From a virus, in IMG/VR virus record IMGVR_UViG_3300010354_000229, positions 1-37,868 of that record: a stretch of 37,868 nucleotides of DNA; one strand, given 5' to 3'. Of this stretch, positions 1 to 10,492 are shown piece by piece. The translations under genes were made by a program, and so were the position numbers. A model generated the notes under the pieces. That model ran no database searches. It had not been told where the DNA came from and worked only from the letters and a program-made list of their open reading frames with translations. The stretch's first letter is position 1. Each line of letters starts with the position of its first letter.

Positions 1-876
1 ATTATAGAACATCATATAAGGACTGTCTGTTGTTTTTGGATATTGCTGAACTGGTCTTTCCTTATCAAAGAATTCAGGGTATCCATAAAACTCAGCAATT
101 GCCTTTGCTTTTTCTGTTTCAATTATGGTTGCAGTCACACTTTGAGTTCGATCTTTGGTTATTTGGTCATTTTCAACTATAGTATCATTACGAATAAGTG
201 AACCAAAATTCTCTCTACTTGCATTATAACCATATCTACTATTTGATGATTCCGTGTATATGTCTAAGTGTCGTTTGATTGCATCACTTTGTGCAGTTCT
301 GTTGTTGTAGTTATTCGACGCAACACCAGCAACCAAACTGCCAACTTGATTGTTGTGTATTTGATTTATTTCAGGATGATCGTTTTCAAATTTAAACAAA
401 TCTGGATTTTGTTGCATTATCTCAATTTGTCTATCATTTAAATTTGGAAATTGTTTTCTTATGTCTTCACTTGAGGATGCTGAATTAACTGTAGGTGATG
501 CTATTGGTGAACTTACAGTTGTTTTTTTGTCATAACCAGAAGAAGTTGGAGCAGCAGAGATAAAATTACTTGAGATATTTCCTTCTTGATAATTTCCTAT
601 GTAATTTTTTTTTACTTCTGTTGGGTTTGATGTTGTATTTAATATTCCTTCAACTGCTCGTTCAACTTCTCGCTGAATGACATTTTGTGTTATATTAACA
701 TTTACATTCAAATTGTTAGATGATTCTGGATTAGCAACATCAGAAGATTCTGTGCTTTTATTTGTGTTTGGCTGTATCATATCTGCTCTATTATTTGTTT
801 CTGGTATGAAACTTAACATAGAATCAGAGAATAAACCTTTAAGTGCTTCTTCTGTTTGTTGTTTTTTGTCTTCCAT
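1..876 (-). CDS. Low-complexity virion protein, N-terminal 292 residues (partial)
   Basis: The reading frame is open from an ATG at 876 to the left edge, so the C-terminus is missing. A ribosome binding site (GAAGG) lies 4-8 bases upstream, and the start sits two bases after the stop of the gp26 frameshift extension. The visible part is rich in Asn, Ser, Gln and Thr and looks largely disordered: a charged N-terminus (MEDKKQQTEE), a Ser/Asn linker near residues 50-70, a possible amphipathic patch near 70-85, and a more structured part after about residue 150 (DIRKQFPNLNDRQIEIMQQN). No signal peptide, membrane segment or enzyme motif is seen. I do not recognise the family. Its place directly after a frameshifted gp26-type assembly factor is where many tail operons keep the tape measure, and where T4 has hub genes 27-29, so a hub or tape-measure role is possible but not shown. 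Confidence 0.8.
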   Translation of the reverse strand, partial: MEDKKQQTEEALKGLFSDSMLSFIPETNNRADMIQPNTNKSTESSDVANPESSNNLNVNVNITQNVIQREVERAVEGILNTTSNPTEVKKNYIGNYQEGNISSNFISAAPTSSGYDKKTTVSSPIASPTVNSASSSEDIRKQFPNLNDRQIEIMQQNPDLFKFENDHPEINQIHNNQVGSLVAGVASNNYNNRTAQSDAIKRHLDIYTESSNSRYGYNASRENFGSLIRNDTIVENDQITKDRTQSVTATIIETEKAKAIAEFYGYPEFFDKERPVQQYPKTTDSPYMMFYN

Positions 877-877
877 T

Positions 878-1093
878 TTACCTTCTCATTCTGCTTTGGC
901 GACTGACTTCTTCTTGATTTCTTTCTAGTTCTTGCTTCTCAATATACTGCCCTAGTCGGTCTACATAAAGATCTCTTTCCCAAGGAATCATTTCGTTTAT
1001 TTCTGTCAAGCTTAGTTTGTGTATATACATCAAACTAAAATTTAACTCATATAACGAAAAGAGATTTATGTAGCTAAGGCTTAGCGAAAAAAA
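878..1093 (-). CDS. C-terminal frameshift extension of gp26 (gp51-like), -1 frame
   Basis: This frame opens immediately after a TGA (1096-1094) exactly at the slippery T TTT TTT heptamer and runs to TAA at 880-878. It has no credible start of its own: the first ATG is 21 codons in and lacks a Shine-Dalgarno sequence. A -1 slip at 1093-1087 would add 69 residues to gp26 residue 237, giving a 306-residue fusion. The extension is clearly coding-like and ends in a charged helix after the motif INEMIPWERDLYVDRL. Tail assembly chaperones of many phages (lambda G/GT, P2 E/E+E') are made this way, P2 using a T7 slippery run. In T4, gene 51 lies next to gene 26 and acts in hub assembly, so this may be the gp51 equivalent. 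The coordinates given are those of the open frame, not of an independent gene. Confidence 0.75.
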   Translation of the reverse strand, partial: FFSLSLSYINLFSLYELNFSLMYIHKLSLTEINEMIPWERDLYVDRLGQYIEKQELERNQEEVSRQSRMRR

Positions 1094-1797
1094 TCACGAA
1101 TCCCCTTGAATGTTATCTTTCGTTGTGTACCATCAGATGTTATATAAGGAACACTGTGTTCTATCTTTGGAATTTTTACAAAAAAGTTCAATATAAGTTG
1201 ATACTGTTGTTTTGTTAGACTGTCTATGAATTCCTTCAAAGTCTGTTTATTTAAATCTGTGATGAGTTCTGTTTTGGTCTGAACAGATTCAATTGAACTT
1301 AACACCATGTCAAATAAATCAATATTGCCGTCATTGTTTTGAACAGCATTCTCAATCAAATATTCAAAGGATGGGTATTTCATATTGACAATCAATTCAT
1401 CTGATATTTTAATATTTTTATTGTTCTCTTCGACTTTAACTTCTATATGTGGAATGAATACATCCACTTTAATTTTTTCTTTTGTTTCTGGACAGACAAA
1501 AGACACATTAATAACTTCCGACACTGATTTTTCTCTTATCTTAAGAAACATATACTCAACATCAAAAATTGGCAGTTTCTTTGAGTTAATTTTAATTGCA
1601 TTATCAGAAAAACAATTATCAATTATATCAGTTATTGTTACTAAAAAATCTGAATAATTTCCTGTGTCCTTTGCTACCAAAAGTGCTTTTTCTTCTTTCA
1701 CTGTAAATGGTCTATATGACAAGTTTTTTCCAGTTGACGGTTGTTTTGCTATGTACTTTGGATAAGAACTTTTCAAAGTCGCTATAATATCATTCAT
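1081..1797 (-). CDS. 26: Baseplate hub assembly protein gp26-like
   Basis: Gene of 238 codons starting at ATG 1797, with a strong ribosome binding site (GAGGT) five to six bases upstream and 11 bases after the stop of the gp54-like gene. The N-terminal pattern YRPFTVKEEKALLVA followed by an Ile-rich segment and a Cys (residues about 55-63) is typical of the T4_baseplate (gp26) family; T4 gp26 is about 208 residues. Family members are needed to assemble the central baseplate hub but are not firmly placed in the finished virion. The gene ends in GIRDFFR, whose last codons form a -1 slippery site leading to a 69-residue extension, so two products are likely, as for tail assembly chaperones. Assignment to the gp26 family is from sequence pattern and synteny. 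Confidence 0.75.
   Translation of the reverse strand: MNDIIATLKSSYPKYIAKQPSTGKNLSYRPFTVKEEKALLVAKDTGNYSDFLVTITDIIDNCFSDNAIKINSKKLPIFDVEYMFLKIREKSVSEVINVSFVCPETKEKIKVDVFIPHIEVKVEENNKNIKISDELIVNMKYPSFEYLIENAVQNNDGNIDLFDMVLSSIESVQTKTELITDLNKQTLKEFIDSLTKQQYQLILNFFVKIPKIEHSVPYITSDGTQRKITFKGIRDFFR
1087..1093 (-). promoter_or_regulatory. Programmed -1 frameshift site, T TTT TTT
   Basis: On the minus strand gp26 ends GAT TTT TTT CGC TAA, so the seven Ts sit in the correct X XXY YYZ phase for a -1 slip. An SD-like AAGGGG (1107-1102) lies eight bases upstream, as in the dnaX type of bacterial frameshift site. GCTAA-GCC-TTAGC (1085-1073) can form a short hairpin two bases downstream and includes the gp26 stop. 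The three elements are seen directly; their use is inferred. Confidence 0.75.
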
Positions 1798-1808
1798 ACT
1801 TTACCTCA

Positions 1809-2540
1809 TTAATAAGTTATCAAATTTGCAAATTTAAAGAATACTTTAAAGGGAGAATACCCAGTCTCTACTGATGTTAAATTCACTTGTGCTATTTGCG
1901 AAACATAAGCTTCCTCAAACATAATGGTTGATCTTGCTACAGGAGTATCATATTGTTCATTTAGTAGTTGTATGGTGAGTGTATCGTAATAGATTTCATC
2001 CATATAATTTGTTGCACCACCACTACCTTTTACAAATCCTTCAACATTGTTTGTGACTGGATCTGTAACGGATGTTAAAAATTCCGTGATTACACCGCCA
2101 GCAGCGACAAATGGATCGCCTGCAGCACTCGTAGGTGGTCCAACTTGCTCTACAGCTGAAGGAGAAACGCCATTTTGAGCAGCAAACTCCGTTAAATCTT
2201 GACCTTGACCTTGTTGACTACTACTAGTATTGTTTCCTCCTCGTACTGATGTAATCAATCCACTCCACCAACTTATCATGTTTTTATAATTTGAGTTGCC
2301 AACTATAAATGTGACTTCTACATCAGTAAATGTTTTTCTGAATGGAATTTTTCTTTGAATGCTCCAAATTGAATGGTCTATAAAATCATAACCTAAACCT
2401 GGTAATGTTATATTATATGGATATAGCAAATCACCTGAGATTGGTGGATAAAGCATAGCGTACCTGTTGGTTTGTTGAATACCTTGACCTAGAATGTTTG
2501 CTCTTGCTTGTGTAATTGATCCTGGGATCGGAAGTTTCAT
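1809..2540 (-). CDS. 54: Tail-tube-fold baseplate protein, gp54-like
   Basis: 243 residues. The N-terminal half has the tube-protein pattern: a start like TNRYAMLYPP, then a hydrophobic LPGLGYDF strand, RKIPFRKTFTDVEVTFI (about 64-80) and a Trp-containing segment ISWWSGLI. The C-terminus (AQVNLTSVETGYSPFKVFFKFAN) is the closing strand seen in T4 gp19, gp48 and gp54. Residues about 95-155 are a Ser/Gln/Gly-rich loop (QGQGQDL). The true tube gene gp19 starts at 37792, so this second tube-like protein, next to gp4 and close to gp48 and gp53, best fits the tube initiator gp54 (320 residues in T4). Its ATG overlaps the TGA of gp4 (ATGA), indicating translational coupling. A tube paralogue with another position in the baseplate is the alternative. 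Confidence 0.55.
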   Translation of the reverse strand: MKLPIPGSITQARANILGQGIQQTNRYAMLYPPISGDLLYPYNITLPGLGYDFIDHSIWSIQRKIPFRKTFTDVEVTFIVGNSNYKNMISWWSGLITSVRGGNNTSSSQQGQGQDLTEFAAQNGVSPSAVEQVGPPTSAAGDPFVAAGGVITEFLTSVTDPVTNNVEGFVKGSGGATNYMDEIYYDTLTIQLLNEQYDTPVARSTIMFEEAYVSQIAQVNLTSVETGYSPFKVFFKFANLITY

Positions 2541-2995: not shown

Positions 2996-3934
2996 ATGGG
3001 TTTTTTTGAAACAGGAGTACCAAATTTTACTGGTCTTTTAGAAGGAACTGACACTTTGATCTTTCCTGCTGAAAGCAGCATTCAAAAAGAAATACCTCTT
3101 TATTTAAGATTAGTATGCACTGAATATTCTATGAATGGAATAGCAAGATCTGGAATAAAATCAATAGGTGCTCAAAAGGCAAATATTTATGTTCCTGTTC
3201 CATCCAAACTTGTAACTCAAACAGCAATGAGATATAAACAAGAGGCAAATGAAGAATATATGAATCTTGCTCAACAAAAAGAATTTGAAAAGAATTTTCC
3301 AGTAAAGGTTGAAGGATTCATGACAGGATTAATGAATCCCCTAACAAGAGTTCTTCCTCCACAAGTTGCAGGAGCTGCAGGAGATTTAGGTAGAAATTTG
3401 GCAAGATCATTCAGTTCAATGATTGATACAGATTTTACTGAAACTATACTTCAATCTGGTTCAAAACGAAGTTTTACTATTTCTTTATACATGCCATGTT
3501 TAAATCAAGCTGACTCTTTAGCAGCTGCTAAAATTACAAGAGCATTTGAAGCTCTTGCATTACCATCAATGATTGGAGCTGGAGTTTCTGCTGTTGGTGG
3601 TGTTCAAATGCATTTTCACCCCCCGATGTGGTTTTTTGGAATAGGATCATTAAAATCAGTCAGATCTGATATTGATTGGACAAGTCAACCGCAAGCGTCA
3701 GTTTTAACAAATGTCGCTGTTTCAAGAACAGCGATTGATGCTTCTTCATTTACTGCTCTTGACGGAAATATTAAACCAGCAGCATACAGCGTCACTTTAA
3801 ATTTTCAAGAAATTGAGACTGCGTTTAGAATTCCAACTCCAGGACAAGCAACCTCATTTGGTATTAAAAATAGATCTGGTGCTGTATCTACTAGTGCAGG
3901 AGCAGCATTAGGACTTATAAGCGCACTTGGGTAA
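2996..3934 (+). CDS. 48: Baseplate tail-tube cap gp48-like
   Basis: 312 residues (T4 gp48 is 364). gp48 sits on the hub and, with gp54, starts tube polymerisation. Recognisable features: a start with FPAESSIQKEIPLYLRLVC (about 22-41); a Lys/Glu-rich helix near 80-100; a Gly/Ala-rich middle (AGAAGDLGRNLARSF); and the C-terminal tube-like part with WFFGIGSLKSVRSD, VLTNVAVSRTAID and YSVTLNFQEIETAFRIP, the family's closing strands. Start ATG 2996 has AAGGA seven to eight bases upstream. It is the first plus-strand gene and diverges from gp4; gp53 follows 13 bases later, as in related aquatic phages. Confidence 0.75.
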   Translation: MGFFETGVPNFTGLLEGTDTLIFPAESSIQKEIPLYLRLVCTEYSMNGIARSGIKSIGAQKANIYVPVPSKLVTQTAMRYKQEANEEYMNLAQQKEFEKNFPVKVEGFMTGLMNPLTRVLPPQVAGAAGDLGRNLARSFSSMIDTDFTETILQSGSKRSFTISLYMPCLNQADSLAAAKITRAFEALALPSMIGAGVSAVGGVQMHFHPPMWFFGIGSLKSVRSDIDWTSQPQASVLTNVAVSRTAIDASSFTALDGNIKPAAYSVTLNFQEIETAFRIPTPGQATSFGIKNRSGAVSTSAGAALGLISALG

Positions 3935-4897: not shown

Positions 4898-7800
4898 ATG
4901 GATACTCAATTATTTAATAAAATTGCAAATAAATCTGTAGGTGACGCAAGTAAAAATATCTACAAGAGCATACTTGAAAGTAAAATACAGTTATTGTCTA
5001 TTGAAAAAGTAGACAAAGATGGAAATATAATTAAATTTGATCTAGTTCCATGGACTAAGCAAACTCAATTTAAACAAGGTAATCCTTTCATTCGAATGCA
5101 ATATGTGGAGTCTATTGAATCTACATTTATGTACGGATCGCTGTACCTTTATGATTATTTAAATTGGGGTGATGAATTTGTTTTGAATGGAACTGAAAAA
5201 ATTATTCTTGGATGTACTGAAAGTATTACATCTGGTGATTTTGCCGAAAACACAACTAAAGATACACCACAAGTTTGCGTATTGAATGAATTTAAAGTCT
5301 TCAGTGTTAAAAAAATAACAGACGATTCCAAAATTGACATTTACATGAATAAGGCAGAACCTTCTTCTATTTGGAAGATAGATTTTACCAGCGAAGATCT
5401 AATATTTAAAAACTACAACGAATCATTTTTAGAAGAGTTTCAAGACTTTGTTGGTTATATTGCTGTTGATTCAAATGAACAAACAGATGAAAATTCTCCA
5501 AAAGGTCTAGTTAACGAAATATTTACAAAATTTGATATATTAGGTGATATTGAAGCAACAAAAAATGGTGTTTGGTTAAAATACAATAGTTTATCATGGC
5601 CCTGGATGAAACAAAGAGGGCAGATGAGGGTTCTGCAATTATTAAACCATCTTACAAATTATGCACAATCAAAAGAAAATCCAAATGCCGTAAATTATTT
5701 CTTCTGGAGAGATCGATATGGTTGGAATTTTAAGAGTATTGATAAATTACTCAGAGATCAACCAAAAGCAGTTGACGGATTCTTAGTTACTTTTAAAAAT
5801 GACAATCCAAATAGAATATACAATATTGAACTTACAAAAGAATTTAGTATACCCCAACTATATGAAACTGGTGTTATTCACACAAATTACTACAGAACAG
5901 ATCCAAATTACAATGATCCGTATTTAGACTTTATCGATACAAATTATGGGTTTACATTTTCAACAATAATCTATGACTACAATAAAGATTATGATTCTTG
6001 GTTACATATCAATCCACAAAAATTGCTTAATGAAACTTTTGAGACTGGTGTAACTAATGATATAGGATTAGTCAAACCTTCCACCAAAACAGATGACATG
6101 ATTTATGGTTACATGAGTAAACAAGTGCAAAACACTCCGTTTCCTCAGTGGTGGGATCATTTAGGTAAAACTTATTCTGGTCCTTGGAGTGATATAGCAT
6201 GGCAACCACAATTTGATTTGACTGAGTTGCATATTAAAGAATTCTATACTATTCAAAAGAAAATTCGTGAACCTCTTAAGAAAAAGAGAGATGAATATAA
6301 TCGCAAGAAAAACATCAAACGAAGGTGGGAAACATATCGATGCACAGTTTGTTGTCATCAAGACGGTGCATTAGGTTCCACAGCAGACATTCAATTGTTT
6401 AATAATCCAGGACCAGTAGATGGAGCAACTTATGCTATGTTGTTTGGTCCGACTGGAATGTTTGCTGAATTTAATCAACAATACAAAATTGTTTCTGTTG
6501 GATCTTTTACGGATCAACTAAATTATGATTCTGGGTTGACCATGCTGAATGGTCTTACACAATCTTATGATTTAACAAAACCACCATACAATCAATCAAT
6601 AGGTGATTTTTTTAATCTTTCAGACGATCCAACAAATTATGTAAACGGTGTAATCAATAGAGCAATAAATCAATACCAGATATTAATTGATCGCTTAGAC
6701 GAAAGAACTGCTGATTTAAATAGTTTTCTTGGTAATGTGAAATCATACAAGCAGACTGCTGATAATATTTTCTTTTCTTCGTTAGTTCCAAAAAACTCAG
6801 ATTATAAACGACCAATTGATCTTATCCAAGGTTACAAATACGTCGGAGATGCAATACCAGGCGAAACAATACTTGAATGGCCTATTACAGAATATGAATA
6901 TGGAATGGTTCCATCTACAGCAATACCAAAAGATTTTGGTGTTGGTGTTCCTGTTTTCAGAGATTCATCTCAGCAACAACAAAACAATTCTCCTAGATCA
7001 ATAACTTTTAGAGCTGGTTCAAATACATGTGGTTGGTGCGTTTCTTGTGATTGTTTTAGAGATCCAATCGGTTCTTTTAGCGGAAGCGGAGAATGTACTG
7101 CACAGTGTACTGCTTCTGGTGGCGAATTTGTAACTTCATGTAATTCTGGAGAATTTTTTGTTTCTGCCCCATGCGATTCCACTGGAAATTCTATACTTGA
7201 AGCAGCAACAAATCAACAACTTGCTGCTCAACAATTAATTTGTTCTTCAAATCCAGGATGTCAAGCTGGACCACCAACTAAAGTTGCATGTTTACCTGGT
7301 CCTGGTGGTATAAATTATTGCACAAATGTGTTTGCAACTGATCCAAATGCTCAATGGGATACATTTGCTGAGTGCTATGCATCTGGTTGTAATGAAATGG
7401 GTGAACAATATATTCTTTGTTGTAGACAAGACAACGCTTGTGGATTGTCAACTTTAGACCAGTGTTTGAATGGTGTTAATGGTCGAGTAGTTTCATCATG
7501 TTCTGAATGCACTGGAGATCCTGATGGTGGCGGCAACGGTCCTGTGGGACCACCTGGACCTCCAGGCCCTCCAGGTCCACCTGGTCCCCCAGGACCAACT
7601 GGTCCAACAGGACCAACAGGGCCTACTGGTCCATCTGGATTGCCAACAGAAGAGGATATCGTAGAATTGGATGTTCCTGTTGAATGTTCAAAGGATAAGG
7701 TTGTAAGAGGATACATCCGTCACATTAGTGATGCTGCTGTTTCTGCATATTCTCCAATATATGTTTATGCTGCTCCATATCTCTGGGCAGCACAGGATGC

Positions 7801-10492
7801 TGTACCTCAAGATTGGTCTTTTTATGATTACGGAACAGATCCAAATTTAATTCCTGGAATAGTTGATAATTCAATAAGAACTACAACTCAAAACTGTATT
7901 AATTCTGGTAAATGCTATAACACTACATGTCTAAGTTCAACTGCACTAGAAGCATTAGCAAGAACATGTATTGCTGAATTACAGTTAATTGCAATTGAAA
8001 AAGAGTTACTTATTTCTCTAAGAAATACCGTAACTGATCAATATAGATTATTATGGCAGCAATTATATCAAGAATGGTATAACCGAAAAGCATTTTTCCA
8101 TTCCAAGAAACCAGGTGAAAGTGTATTCAATAATCCAAATACAGAGACTGGTTTAGTTTCTAAAAATTTCTTCAGTCTAGAAAATGTAAAAAAGATTACG
8201 CGAAAAGAAATTAGAGGAAGTAGATATGAAATATTATCCAAGTCCAAAGGAATAACTGGAGCATCCGCTGGTGAATGGTTATATAAAATATTTTTTGGAA
8301 ATAATGAAGGATCAACTGCACATCCATATTATGACCAAAAGTATACACAAACACCATTCATAACATCAAGAGAACCATATTCGTGGTATAGCGTTGAAGA
8401 TGTAGATTCCACTGATAATCCACAATATGATTTTGATGGAGAAAGAAGAAATTATTCTTCTACTGATATTTTACCAAAACAAGAATATGCTCCAGAGTTT
8501 AGAGGATCCGAACATGTAGAAGTTGGCGTAATGCATATACCTTCTACTGATATGGGAAATATTAACAATGTTTTATTAAACTTCAATGGCGGAATCGCCA
8601 ATGCTGTTTCACAATTTGCACAGGGAGATGTTACACCATCAAATGCTTTATCATTGAAGAACACATTTAATCTTTACGATATCAAACCAGAAAGCAAACC
8701 ACCAAATATAAAGAAAGAAGAAATAACATCATACTTCAGAATTGAATTTAACAACCCAATCGGTCTGGACAGAATTAAAGAATTCCCTGATGGATTTGTC
8801 AGAGATGCAGGAATTGAGTATTTCTTACCTTATATTGTACAATTAACACCAGGTCCATTTGGAAAACAATCAGTAAAATATAATGCAGCAGTCATAGGAA
8901 TGGATCCATATGGATTCGATGTTGCTGTTAAGAAAATTAAAGATGATATTCCTGCAAATAGAAAACTTGCTGGATTTGATCGCGGAAATTATTATTCTTG
9001 GTGGAATCATGACACTGGTTCTTTATTGTCCAAGACTCAATACTTAAGCACAGATTACAATGGAATGGATTTGTGGCCTGAACCTATATTTGAAACAGAA
9101 TACACTTATTATGCGTTCGACCACACACAAGAAGATATGCACGGTGGAAATTTAGACATGGATTTCCACAATGGTGGAGGATTTAATTTTGAAAACTCTT
9201 CTCAAGATTGGATGGAATCTTTATATGATTATGGAATGAGTTCTGGTAAGCAGTTTGATCCTCTCAGAAGAACTTCTTCTATGGGATCATATCTCCTGCC
9301 TAATAGTTACAGGAAAATGAAACCACATCGTTCTTGGTGGTCTATTTTTATTCCTAGAAATTTATTCATACCCGTAAGATTCTCCAATATGTTTAAGTCA
9401 CTAAGAAAGAAAGCAAGAGATTTGTTTGGTGGTAAAGGAATATTTACTGCTAATCCACAATATTGGAAAAATTGGTATGGAACAGAATTCCAAGACTGGA
9501 TTGCATTGGCAGATAAAAACAATCCAGATTTATCTGGTTTGTTAACCAATACCAGTCTTTCTATCTTTTTACAGGATACCGATGCTGGCACTTGTGTAAA
9601 TCCAGTAAAAACTGGAACTCTGCCAGCAGGAATCAAAAAATATTTTAACGATTCTTTAATGCATTATTTAAATGGATCTGCTCTTCTTTATAGACCATCT
9701 ATAGTTGCAGAAGATCTATGGAAGTATGACCTCAGCGGAGAGACTGACTATGGACTAATAACACCACCAGTTGACGCTGAATATGATTTCTTTGATCGTA
9801 ACTTCTCTATGCAATTTGTTGTTTTTGCCAGAGGAAGTAGATCATGCGAAGAACTTGGTCTAAAATGTGCTAACCCAAACACACCACCTTTAATAAGTTC
9901 AGAAGGTTGTGAACCAAACGATCCTTATTGTAACTGCCCAGCACAAGATAAGATGCCTACTGATTCCGAACCAACATATCTTGAACTATATAAACTATAT
10001 CAAGAATTGTCAGAATGTAAACTCATTGAAGAATATCTTGGAGAAGACTGGTTGGGATGTGAATGGTCGAACCCAGATTCCCCATGCAGTTGCAACTGCC
10101 CAGAACAAGGAAAAAATTTCAATAAGTATCTTGAATATAACAGGACTTATGCAACTTTCTGGGAAACTGACCATAAGACACCTTTATTGAGAATAGCACA
10201 AATCGGATTGCTATCTGCACAACAAATGACAATTGTTATTGGTCCAAATGACAAAGTTAAAGTTGGATCAATTATTGAAATTTTTGTACCAAACAGCGAA
10301 TTGGTTATTAAGAATAAATTTAAGAGATTTTCTGGGAAATGGTTAGTATCTTCAATCAGTCACGATTTCTCTACTTTGAGAAACTATTCTCTAACTTTAA
10401 GTTTAATTCGAGATTCTATTGATTATGACATAAACGAAAGTGAAGAACCAGTATCGATCTTCACTGTAAATTCATACGATAAAGCAAACTAA
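4898..10492 (+). CDS. Giant hub-like baseplate protein with cysteine-rich and collagen-like insertion
   Basis: 1864 residues, the largest gene here. The N-terminal about 400 residues look like a gp27-type hub barrel, including FFWRDRYGWNFKSIDKLL (about 268-285). The last about 100 residues (1762-1864) match the end of such hubs: GSIIEIFVPN, then a GKWLVSSISHDFS strand and LTLSLIRDS. Between them lie some 1350 inserted residues: a basic helix with a Cys pair (about 470-490), a cysteine-rich block (about 711-873, starting CGWCVSCDC), twelve collagen-like Gly-Pro-X triplets (881-916), long Tyr/Asp-rich regions, and two small Cys clusters near 1670-1745 (PYCNCP, CSCNCP). Its place between gp53 and gp25 matches hub/gp5 positions in related phages. 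No lysozyme motif was recognised. The hub role is inference from both termini and position. Confidence 0.6.
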   Translation: MDTQLFNKIANKSVGDASKNIYKSILESKIQLLSIEKVDKDGNIIKFDLVPWTKQTQFKQGNPFIRMQYVESIESTFMYGSLYLYDYLNWGDEFVLNGTEKIILGCTESITSGDFAENTTKDTPQVCVLNEFKVFSVKKITDDSKIDIYMNKAEPSSIWKIDFTSEDLIFKNYNESFLEEFQDFVGYIAVDSNEQTDENSPKGLVNEIFTKFDILGDIEATKNGVWLKYNSLSWPWMKQRGQMRVLQLLNHLTNYAQSKENPNAVNYFFWRDRYGWNFKSIDKLLRDQPKAVDGFLVTFKNDNPNRIYNIELTKEFSIPQLYETGVIHTNYYRTDPNYNDPYLDFIDTNYGFTFSTIIYDYNKDYDSWLHINPQKLLNETFETGVTNDIGLVKPSTKTDDMIYGYMSKQVQNTPFPQWWDHLGKTYSGPWSDIAWQPQFDLTELHIKEFYTIQKKIREPLKKKRDEYNRKKNIKRRWETYRCTVCCHQDGALGSTADIQLFNNPGPVDGATYAMLFGPTGMFAEFNQQYKIVSVGSFTDQLNYDSGLTMLNGLTQSYDLTKPPYNQSIGDFFNLSDDPTNYVNGVINRAINQYQILIDRLDERTADLNSFLGNVKSYKQTADNIFFSSLVPKNSDYKRPIDLIQGYKYVGDAIPGETILEWPITEYEYGMVPSTAIPKDFGVGVPVFRDSSQQQQNNSPRSITFRAGSNTCGWCVSCDCFRDPIGSFSGSGECTAQCTASGGEFVTSCNSGEFFVSAPCDSTGNSILEAATNQQLAAQQLICSSNPGCQAGPPTKVACLPGPGGINYCTNVFATDPNAQWDTFAECYASGCNEMGEQYILCCRQDNACGLSTLDQCLNGVNGRVVSSCSECTGDPDGGGNGPVGPPGPPGPPGPPGPPGPTGPTGPTGPTGPSGLPTEEDIVELDVPVECSKDKVVRGYIRHISDAAVSAYSPIYVYAAPYLWAAQDAVPQDWSFYDYGTDPNLIPGIVDNSIRTTTQNCINSGKCYNTTCLSSTALEALARTCIAELQLIAIEKELLISLRNTVTDQYRLLWQQLYQEWYNRKAFFHSKKPGESVFNNPNTETGLVSKNFFSLENVKKITRKEIRGSRYEILSKSKGITGASAGEWLYKIFFGNNEGSTAHPYYDQKYTQTPFITSREPYSWYSVEDVDSTDNPQYDFDGERRNYSSTDILPKQEYAPEFRGSEHVEVGVMHIPSTDMGNINNVLLNFNGGIANAVSQFAQGDVTPSNALSLKNTFNLYDIKPESKPPNIKKEEITSYFRIEFNNPIGLDRIKEFPDGFVRDAGIEYFLPYIVQLTPGPFGKQSVKYNAAVIGMDPYGFDVAVKKIKDDIPANRKLAGFDRGNYYSWWNHDTGSLLSKTQYLSTDYNGMDLWPEPIFETEYTYYAFDHTQEDMHGGNLDMDFHNGGGFNFENSSQDWMESLYDYGMSSGKQFDPLRRTSSMGSYLLPNSYRKMKPHRSWWSIFIPRNLFIPVRFSNMFKSLRKKARDLFGGKGIFTANPQYWKNWYGTEFQDWIALADKNNPDLSGLLTNTSLSIFLQDTDAGTCVNPVKTGTLPAGIKKYFNDSLMHYLNGSALLYRPSIVAEDLWKYDLSGETDYGLITPPVDAEYDFFDRNFSMQFVVFARGSRSCEELGLKCANPNTPPLISSEGCEPNDPYCNCPAQDKMPTDSEPTYLELYKLYQELSECKLIEEYLGEDWLGCEWSNPDSPCSCNCPEQGKNFNKYLEYNRTYATFWETDHKTPLLRIAQIGLLSAQQMTIVIGPNDKVKVGSIIEIFVPNSELVIKNKFKRFSGKWLVSSISHDFSTLRNYSLTLSLIRDSIDYDINESEEPVSIFTVNSYDKAN
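7538..7645 (+). repeat. Collagen-like Gly-Pro-X repeat DNA in the giant hub gene
   Basis: Twelve consecutive GGN-CCN-NNN nonamers: one GPV, five GPP, four GPT, GPS and GLP. The pattern also reads Gly-Pro-rich in antisense, creating a spurious minus-strand frame. Confidence 0.9.

Follow-up and report, generated by a model that had tools for sequence, protein, structure and literature searches.

The G/GT mechanism of phage lambda has been described (PMC5009743) and shares with the locus reported here a short protein and a rare -1 extension located close to where the short gene ends, within a tail gene cluster. The hub assembly chaperones listed for T4 include gp26 and gp51, the latter being required yet absent from the finished particle (PMC3004832). 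Cyanophage gp51 has been reported to reach about 20% of its usual length, and Aeh1 to be the only phage in which gp51 is missing (PMC3037559). The chaperone genes of T4-like phages were identified by Vladimirov, Gautam & Davidson (2022, Virology 566:9-15), a study known here from two papers citing it, PMC10885494 for the two-gene solution and PMC12846349 for poly-T slippery sequences in the TAC-N genes of T4-like phages. Judging from the homology shown below, the genes in question are presumably gp26 and gp51, and they share with the present locus the occurrence of short and long tail assembly chaperone forms. The literature search, which reached this study by way of its citations, returned no text directly on a gp26/gp51 frameshift. 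Judged from the citing papers, the kind of system is thus already known, and the present locus and its lineage are new members of it.

The window, i.e. the whole stretch of viral DNA analysed here (37,868 nucleotides, IMG/VR record IMGVR_UViG_3300010354_000229), differs from each of these systems. T4 itself produces the two forms from two genes with no frameshift, whereas in the window one gene, with T TTT TTT in phase, would supply both. Lambda G and GT show no demonstrated sequence homology to the locus, whose extension resembles gp51 and not lambda T, and the slippery site of lambda is different as well. The chaperone locus of the Vandenendeviridae/Andersonviridae, exemplified by phage Adele, belongs to another phage clade and has a GTTTTT motif (PMC12846349).

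Organization of the gp26 locus

The gp26 homologue lies on the minus strand, and its 3' end reads ...CGT GAT TTT TTT CGC TAA (Table 1). The PF12322 and phrog_150 profiles match across the whole protein, and the extension belongs to phrog_634, which comprises the baseplate hub assembly catalyst of the T4 gp51 family. When the extension was used as a protein query, matches were obtained in 509 phage records. The -1 reading after the TGA is FF SLSLSYINLFSLYELNFSLMYIHKLSLTEINEMIPWERDLYVDRLGQYIEKQELERNQEEVSRQSRMRR, with its stop at 880-878. A first-pass annotation made from the letters of the window had proposed a complete -1 frameshift cassette at this place, and most of its elements were recovered: the in-phase heptamer, the AAGGGG eight bases 5' of it, the TGA of the -1 frame abutting it, the 69 open codons (counted past the two shared Phe codons), the PWERDLY motif in the extension, and the recomputed product sizes of 238 aa for gp26 and 306 aa for the fusion. 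The -1 frame also has no start codon near its beginning, the earliest candidates being TTG at codon 20 and ATG at codon 21.

Table 1. Features of the gp26 locus in the window
Feature	Coordinates	Strand	Evidence
gp26 homologue, short tail-assembly-chaperone isoform, 238 aa	1081..1797	-	PF12322 E=1.6e-51; phrog_150 E=1.7e-52
Slippery heptamer T TTT TTT, in phase with gp26	1087..1093	-	sequence and conservation in related loci
-1 frame stop TGA directly 5' of the heptamer	1094..1096	-	sequence
gp51-like extension in the -1 frame: two shared Phe codons, then 69 codons and a stop	878..1087	-	phrog_634 E=3.2e-17
AAGGGG, resembling a Shine-Dalgarno, 8 nt 5' of the heptamer; may stimulate weakly	1102..1107	-	sequence
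GCTAA/TTAGC mini-hairpin, one base 3' of the heptamer	1073..1085	-	role as conserved stimulator unsupported
gp26 zero-frame stop, one codon past the heptamer	1081..1083	-	sequence
Next downstream gene, runs off the window	1..876	-	position by synteny
Upstream neighbour of gp26, tail-tube-like	1809..2540	-	weak match to phrog_45 tail tube, E=0.012

Two further features of the window were noted. At 2537-2968 and 2996-3934, a homologue of the head-closure protein gp4 that carries a TnsA-like nuclease domain (PF08722) is divergent from the plus-strand genes, and the 27-base gap between the two stretches may hold promoters. A 1864-aa ORF at 4898-10492 contains a collagen-like GPPGPP/GPTGPT stretch and cysteine-rich segments.

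Conservation of the slippery heptamer

Related gp26 loci were gathered from viral contigs and named phages, giving a set of 132 with the window included. An in-phase T TTT TTN was found at the end of gp26 in all 132, its last base being T in 76, C in 30, A in 22 and G in 4, and the zero-frame stop lay 0 or 1 codon past the heptamer in 128 of the 132. The -1 extension was complete in every one of the 128 loci with enough sequence, running for 58-72 codons from the heptamer. This comparison of gp26 ends and downstream frames, which the first-pass annotation had suggested as a check, lends good support to its proposal that a -1 frameshift yields both gp26 and the fusion.

Given the amino acids and codon usage, the chance of finding the heptamer in all 95 representatives (less than 85% nucleotide identity) was about 10^-40, a null that treats the representatives as independent and therefore overstates the exponent. 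The contrast with the internal F[FL] dipeptides of the same genes, just 10 of 185 of which are slippery, holds whatever the independence assumption. Among the 91 in-phase canonical heptamers in the main genes of the window, only that of gp26 has a -1 frame continuing far beyond the zero-frame stop, by 66 codons; at a single further heptamer the -1 frame reaches 1 codon past it. Under a dinucleotide Markov model, a -1 frame this open has P=0.003. Conservation is the decisive evidence that the heptamer and the open -1 frame exceed chance.

The pattern extends to 16 named phages of diverse hosts, six of which are also among the 132. T TTT TTN and the extension were kept together in 15 of them, and the heptamer site was retained across GC contents of 0.33-0.59 and ten host genera. 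The exception is Vibrio phage K476, which has no T6 run and shows a TAATG overlap. In Aeh1, the gp51 domain was located in the -1 frame, where the first start comes at codon 20; a profile search covering fifteen sequences gave it E=3.4e-17. A protein search of viral contigs with the gp26 of Vibrio K491 found no relatives. Extensions in the -1 frame that are gp51-like but not labelled as gp51 were noted in Acidovorax ACP17, Xanthomonas X1, Aeh1, Aeromonas 65, CC2 and Vibrio VmeM-32 (L154, L155, L158, L159, L160 and L162).

Entry into the extension

Gp26 and the extension very probably constitute one gene, from which a -1 ribosomal slip would give a presumed chaperone pair of 238 and 306 aa. Most ribosomes would end at the gp26 stop and release the short form. 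A minority, the slippage and its efficiency both being predictions, would slip at U UUU UUU as the two tRNAs re-pair one base back; these ribosomes would bypass the stop and complete the long form, whose last 69 residues would make up the gp51 domain.

The TGA directly before the heptamer means that the extension is not enterable from further upstream in its own frame, and a -1 stop is likewise found right before the heptamer in 38 of 128 relatives. For extension codons 5-19, which lie ahead of any ATG in most loci, pN/pS was 0.23 in the -1 frame but 1.09 and 1.64 in the two others, indicating purifying selection in the -1 frame alone. Internal initiation at the ATG of codon 20 or 21 was rejected, because these ATGs have no Shine-Dalgarno (mean +0.17 kcal/mol versus -4.67 kcal/mol at gp26 starts) and the Met is not strictly conserved, being present at codon 21 in 58 of the 95 representatives. 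Frameshifting at the heptamer is the simplest route into the extension.

A free-standing gp51 appears in deposited annotations, and most databases annotate the extension that way, so that it would be a separate small protein whose translation begins independently, through re-initiation or at an internal start, and the heptamer would be incidental. An ATG overlapping or adjoining the gp26 stop does occur together with the heptamer in 7 of the 15 named phages that keep it (Vibrio K491, Vibrio VH7D, the Stenotrophomonas, Rhizobium, Agrobacterium and Delftia phages, and phiM12), and Vibrio K476 has an ATG at the gp26 stop without a T6 run. The first-pass annotation had held that relatives whose extension has its own start and ribosome binding site would speak against frameshifting; several distant relatives do carry such an ATG (TGATG/TAATG), but all of them except K476 retain the heptamer. 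In the seven phages with both signals, some free extension may arise in addition by re-initiation. In most relatives and in the window itself, however, the first ATG lies at least 20 codons inside the conserved extension and has no Shine-Dalgarno, and the first 24 codons of the extension contain no start codon at all in L001, Aeromonas 65 and CC2. A separate gp51 also leaves the conserved heptamer and the single-frame gp51 of T4 unexplained, and it is a most improbable account of the locus. Slippage of RNA polymerase on the T run, instead of the ribosome, would fit the seven T of the window and the run of at least seven T in 76 of the 132 loci, but it is more improbable still, as the remaining 56 loci have six T only, followed by A, C or G, a run that is short for polymerase slippage, and the T run is always in the codon phase required for tandem slippage on the ribosome.

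Candidate stimulators

For ribosomal frameshifting at the heptamer, two nearby elements had been put forward in the first-pass annotation as parts of the cassette, and each was recovered with reservations. The GCTAA/TTAGC hairpin is present, but it is offset by one base, not two, and is weak (-3.2 kcal/mol). It is not kept in the two nearest relatives, L001 having a different fold of -1.4 kcal/mol and L002 none, and a role as a conserved stimulator is not supported. The Shine-Dalgarno-like AAGGGG exists as well but was over-read, its letters being largely forced by the E/K-G-L amino acids. A Shine-Dalgarno-like core is located 7-10 nt upstream of the heptamer in 80 of 95 relatives and exceeds what the amino acids impose by only a small margin (-0.55 +/- 0.17 kcal/mol).

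RNAalifold applied to 95 anchored sequences gave no consensus downstream structure, and no conserved stimulatory structure was found for the lineage of the window. Downstream folding was stronger than in synonymous shuffles (mean z -0.85), which is only suggestive because upstream control regions also fold, reaching -0.59. About one quarter of the relatives, the lineage of the window not among them, have a hairpin at 26-51 nt, counted from the start of the heptamer. Stems of at least 6 at the centre of this hairpin were counted in 26 loci versus 10.5 expected, a few of these lying at other positions, and the hairpin may be a lineage-specific stimulator. It was observed in L087, L106, L124 and L131 among others, with stems of up to 11 bp (AGTCTTGTAA...TTATAAGACT).

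One gene or two in T4-like phages

T4 gp51 offers a direct comparison for the fusion. Its residues 1-201 match PF12322 (E=3.9e-52) and are followed by the extension, and residues 16-246 of its 249 align to the profile of the frameshift fusion, unbroken across the junction. By these alignments, T4 gp51 is a paralogue of gp26 with the extension in frame, i.e. a one-frame version of the fusion. The extension of the window is unlike the free-standing gene of the T4 gp51 family in having no nearby start and a TGA before the heptamer. The heptamer is found in none of the 11 T4-type gp26 genes, in whose phages gp51 is a separate one-frame gene; these genes keep an F-F or similar end without it, e.g. 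GAG TTC TTT GAG. The T4-type phages are thereby a natural control for the slippery site. The paralogy of gp51 and the T4 gp26 without heptamer indicate that the short and long forms of T4 derive from two genes, while those of the phages related to the window would, under the frameshift reading, derive from one.

The frameshift group, T4 gp26 and T4 gp51 formed three separate clades in an unrooted tree. On balance, gp26 frameshifting is somewhat favoured as the ancestral state of T4-like phages, from which the T4 branch would have departed by a gene duplication, with the slippery site lost from one copy and the extension joined in frame to the other, although this direction from frameshift to duplication rests on distribution only, the tree giving no root. 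The 'truncated' gp51 of cyanophages and the 'missing' gp51 of Aeh1 would then be annotation artefacts.

Gp51 genes in two pieces were encountered as well. In one T4-like record (L146, 2501-3246), gp51 is spread over two ORFs of 120 and 123 aa with a one-base frame change near TTCAAAAACCCATAG, and the fold search showed gp51 of Klebsiella phage KPV15 likewise in two pieces. Such a split could be a sequencing error or a real break.

Fold, neighbours and proposed function

The model of gp26 has a pLDDT of 92.5, and its best match among solved structures is the HK97 tail assembly chaperone 2ob9 (Z 7.4), followed by 3fgx (Z 7.0), with the next chain at 2.5. The match to 2ob9 covers the first part of gp26 only (model residues 1-92) at 6% identity and, with its Z of 7.4 under 8, is suggestive but below the level at which fold alone convinces. 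A PDB sequence search with the gp26 profile gave nothing credible. The gp51 model found no chaperone match in the PDB (best Z 4.9), which excludes nothing.

The gene position upstream of gp26 is annotated as tail tube in phiM12, Vibrio K491 and Cronobacter S13. The position downstream is occupied by a large gene in related phages, tape-measure-like in a few; in Vibrio K491 alone does such similarity fall to the gene directly following the chaperone, and in phiM12 it falls two genes on. The downstream gene of the window itself had no family match and no recognisable tape-measure match.

The chaperone match of the gp26 model, together with the listing of T4 gp26 and gp51 as hub assembly chaperones, makes the lambda mechanism the best model, by analogy. 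The first-pass annotation had likened the T4 26/51 pair in this phage to lambda G/GT, and the likeness is well supported by the gp51 family membership of the extension, the one-frame fusion in T4 and the chaperone match. The two forms would accordingly resemble the gpG/gpGT pair in role: the domain common to both would attach to hub components or the tape measure, and recruitment of tail-tube or hub subunits would fall to the longer, rarer form.

Significance

The contributions of this work are the survey, the T4 control and the explanation of the Aeh1 and cyanophage annotations, some of which Vladimirov et al. (2022) may already contain. The frameshift reading accounts for the short gp51 of cyanophages and the absent gp51 of Aeh1 (PMC3037559), and for a gene that many T4-like phage records split or overlook it points to the probable true product. 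It also provides a clean natural comparison in which the same problem is solved by frameshifting in some phages and by gene duplication in others.
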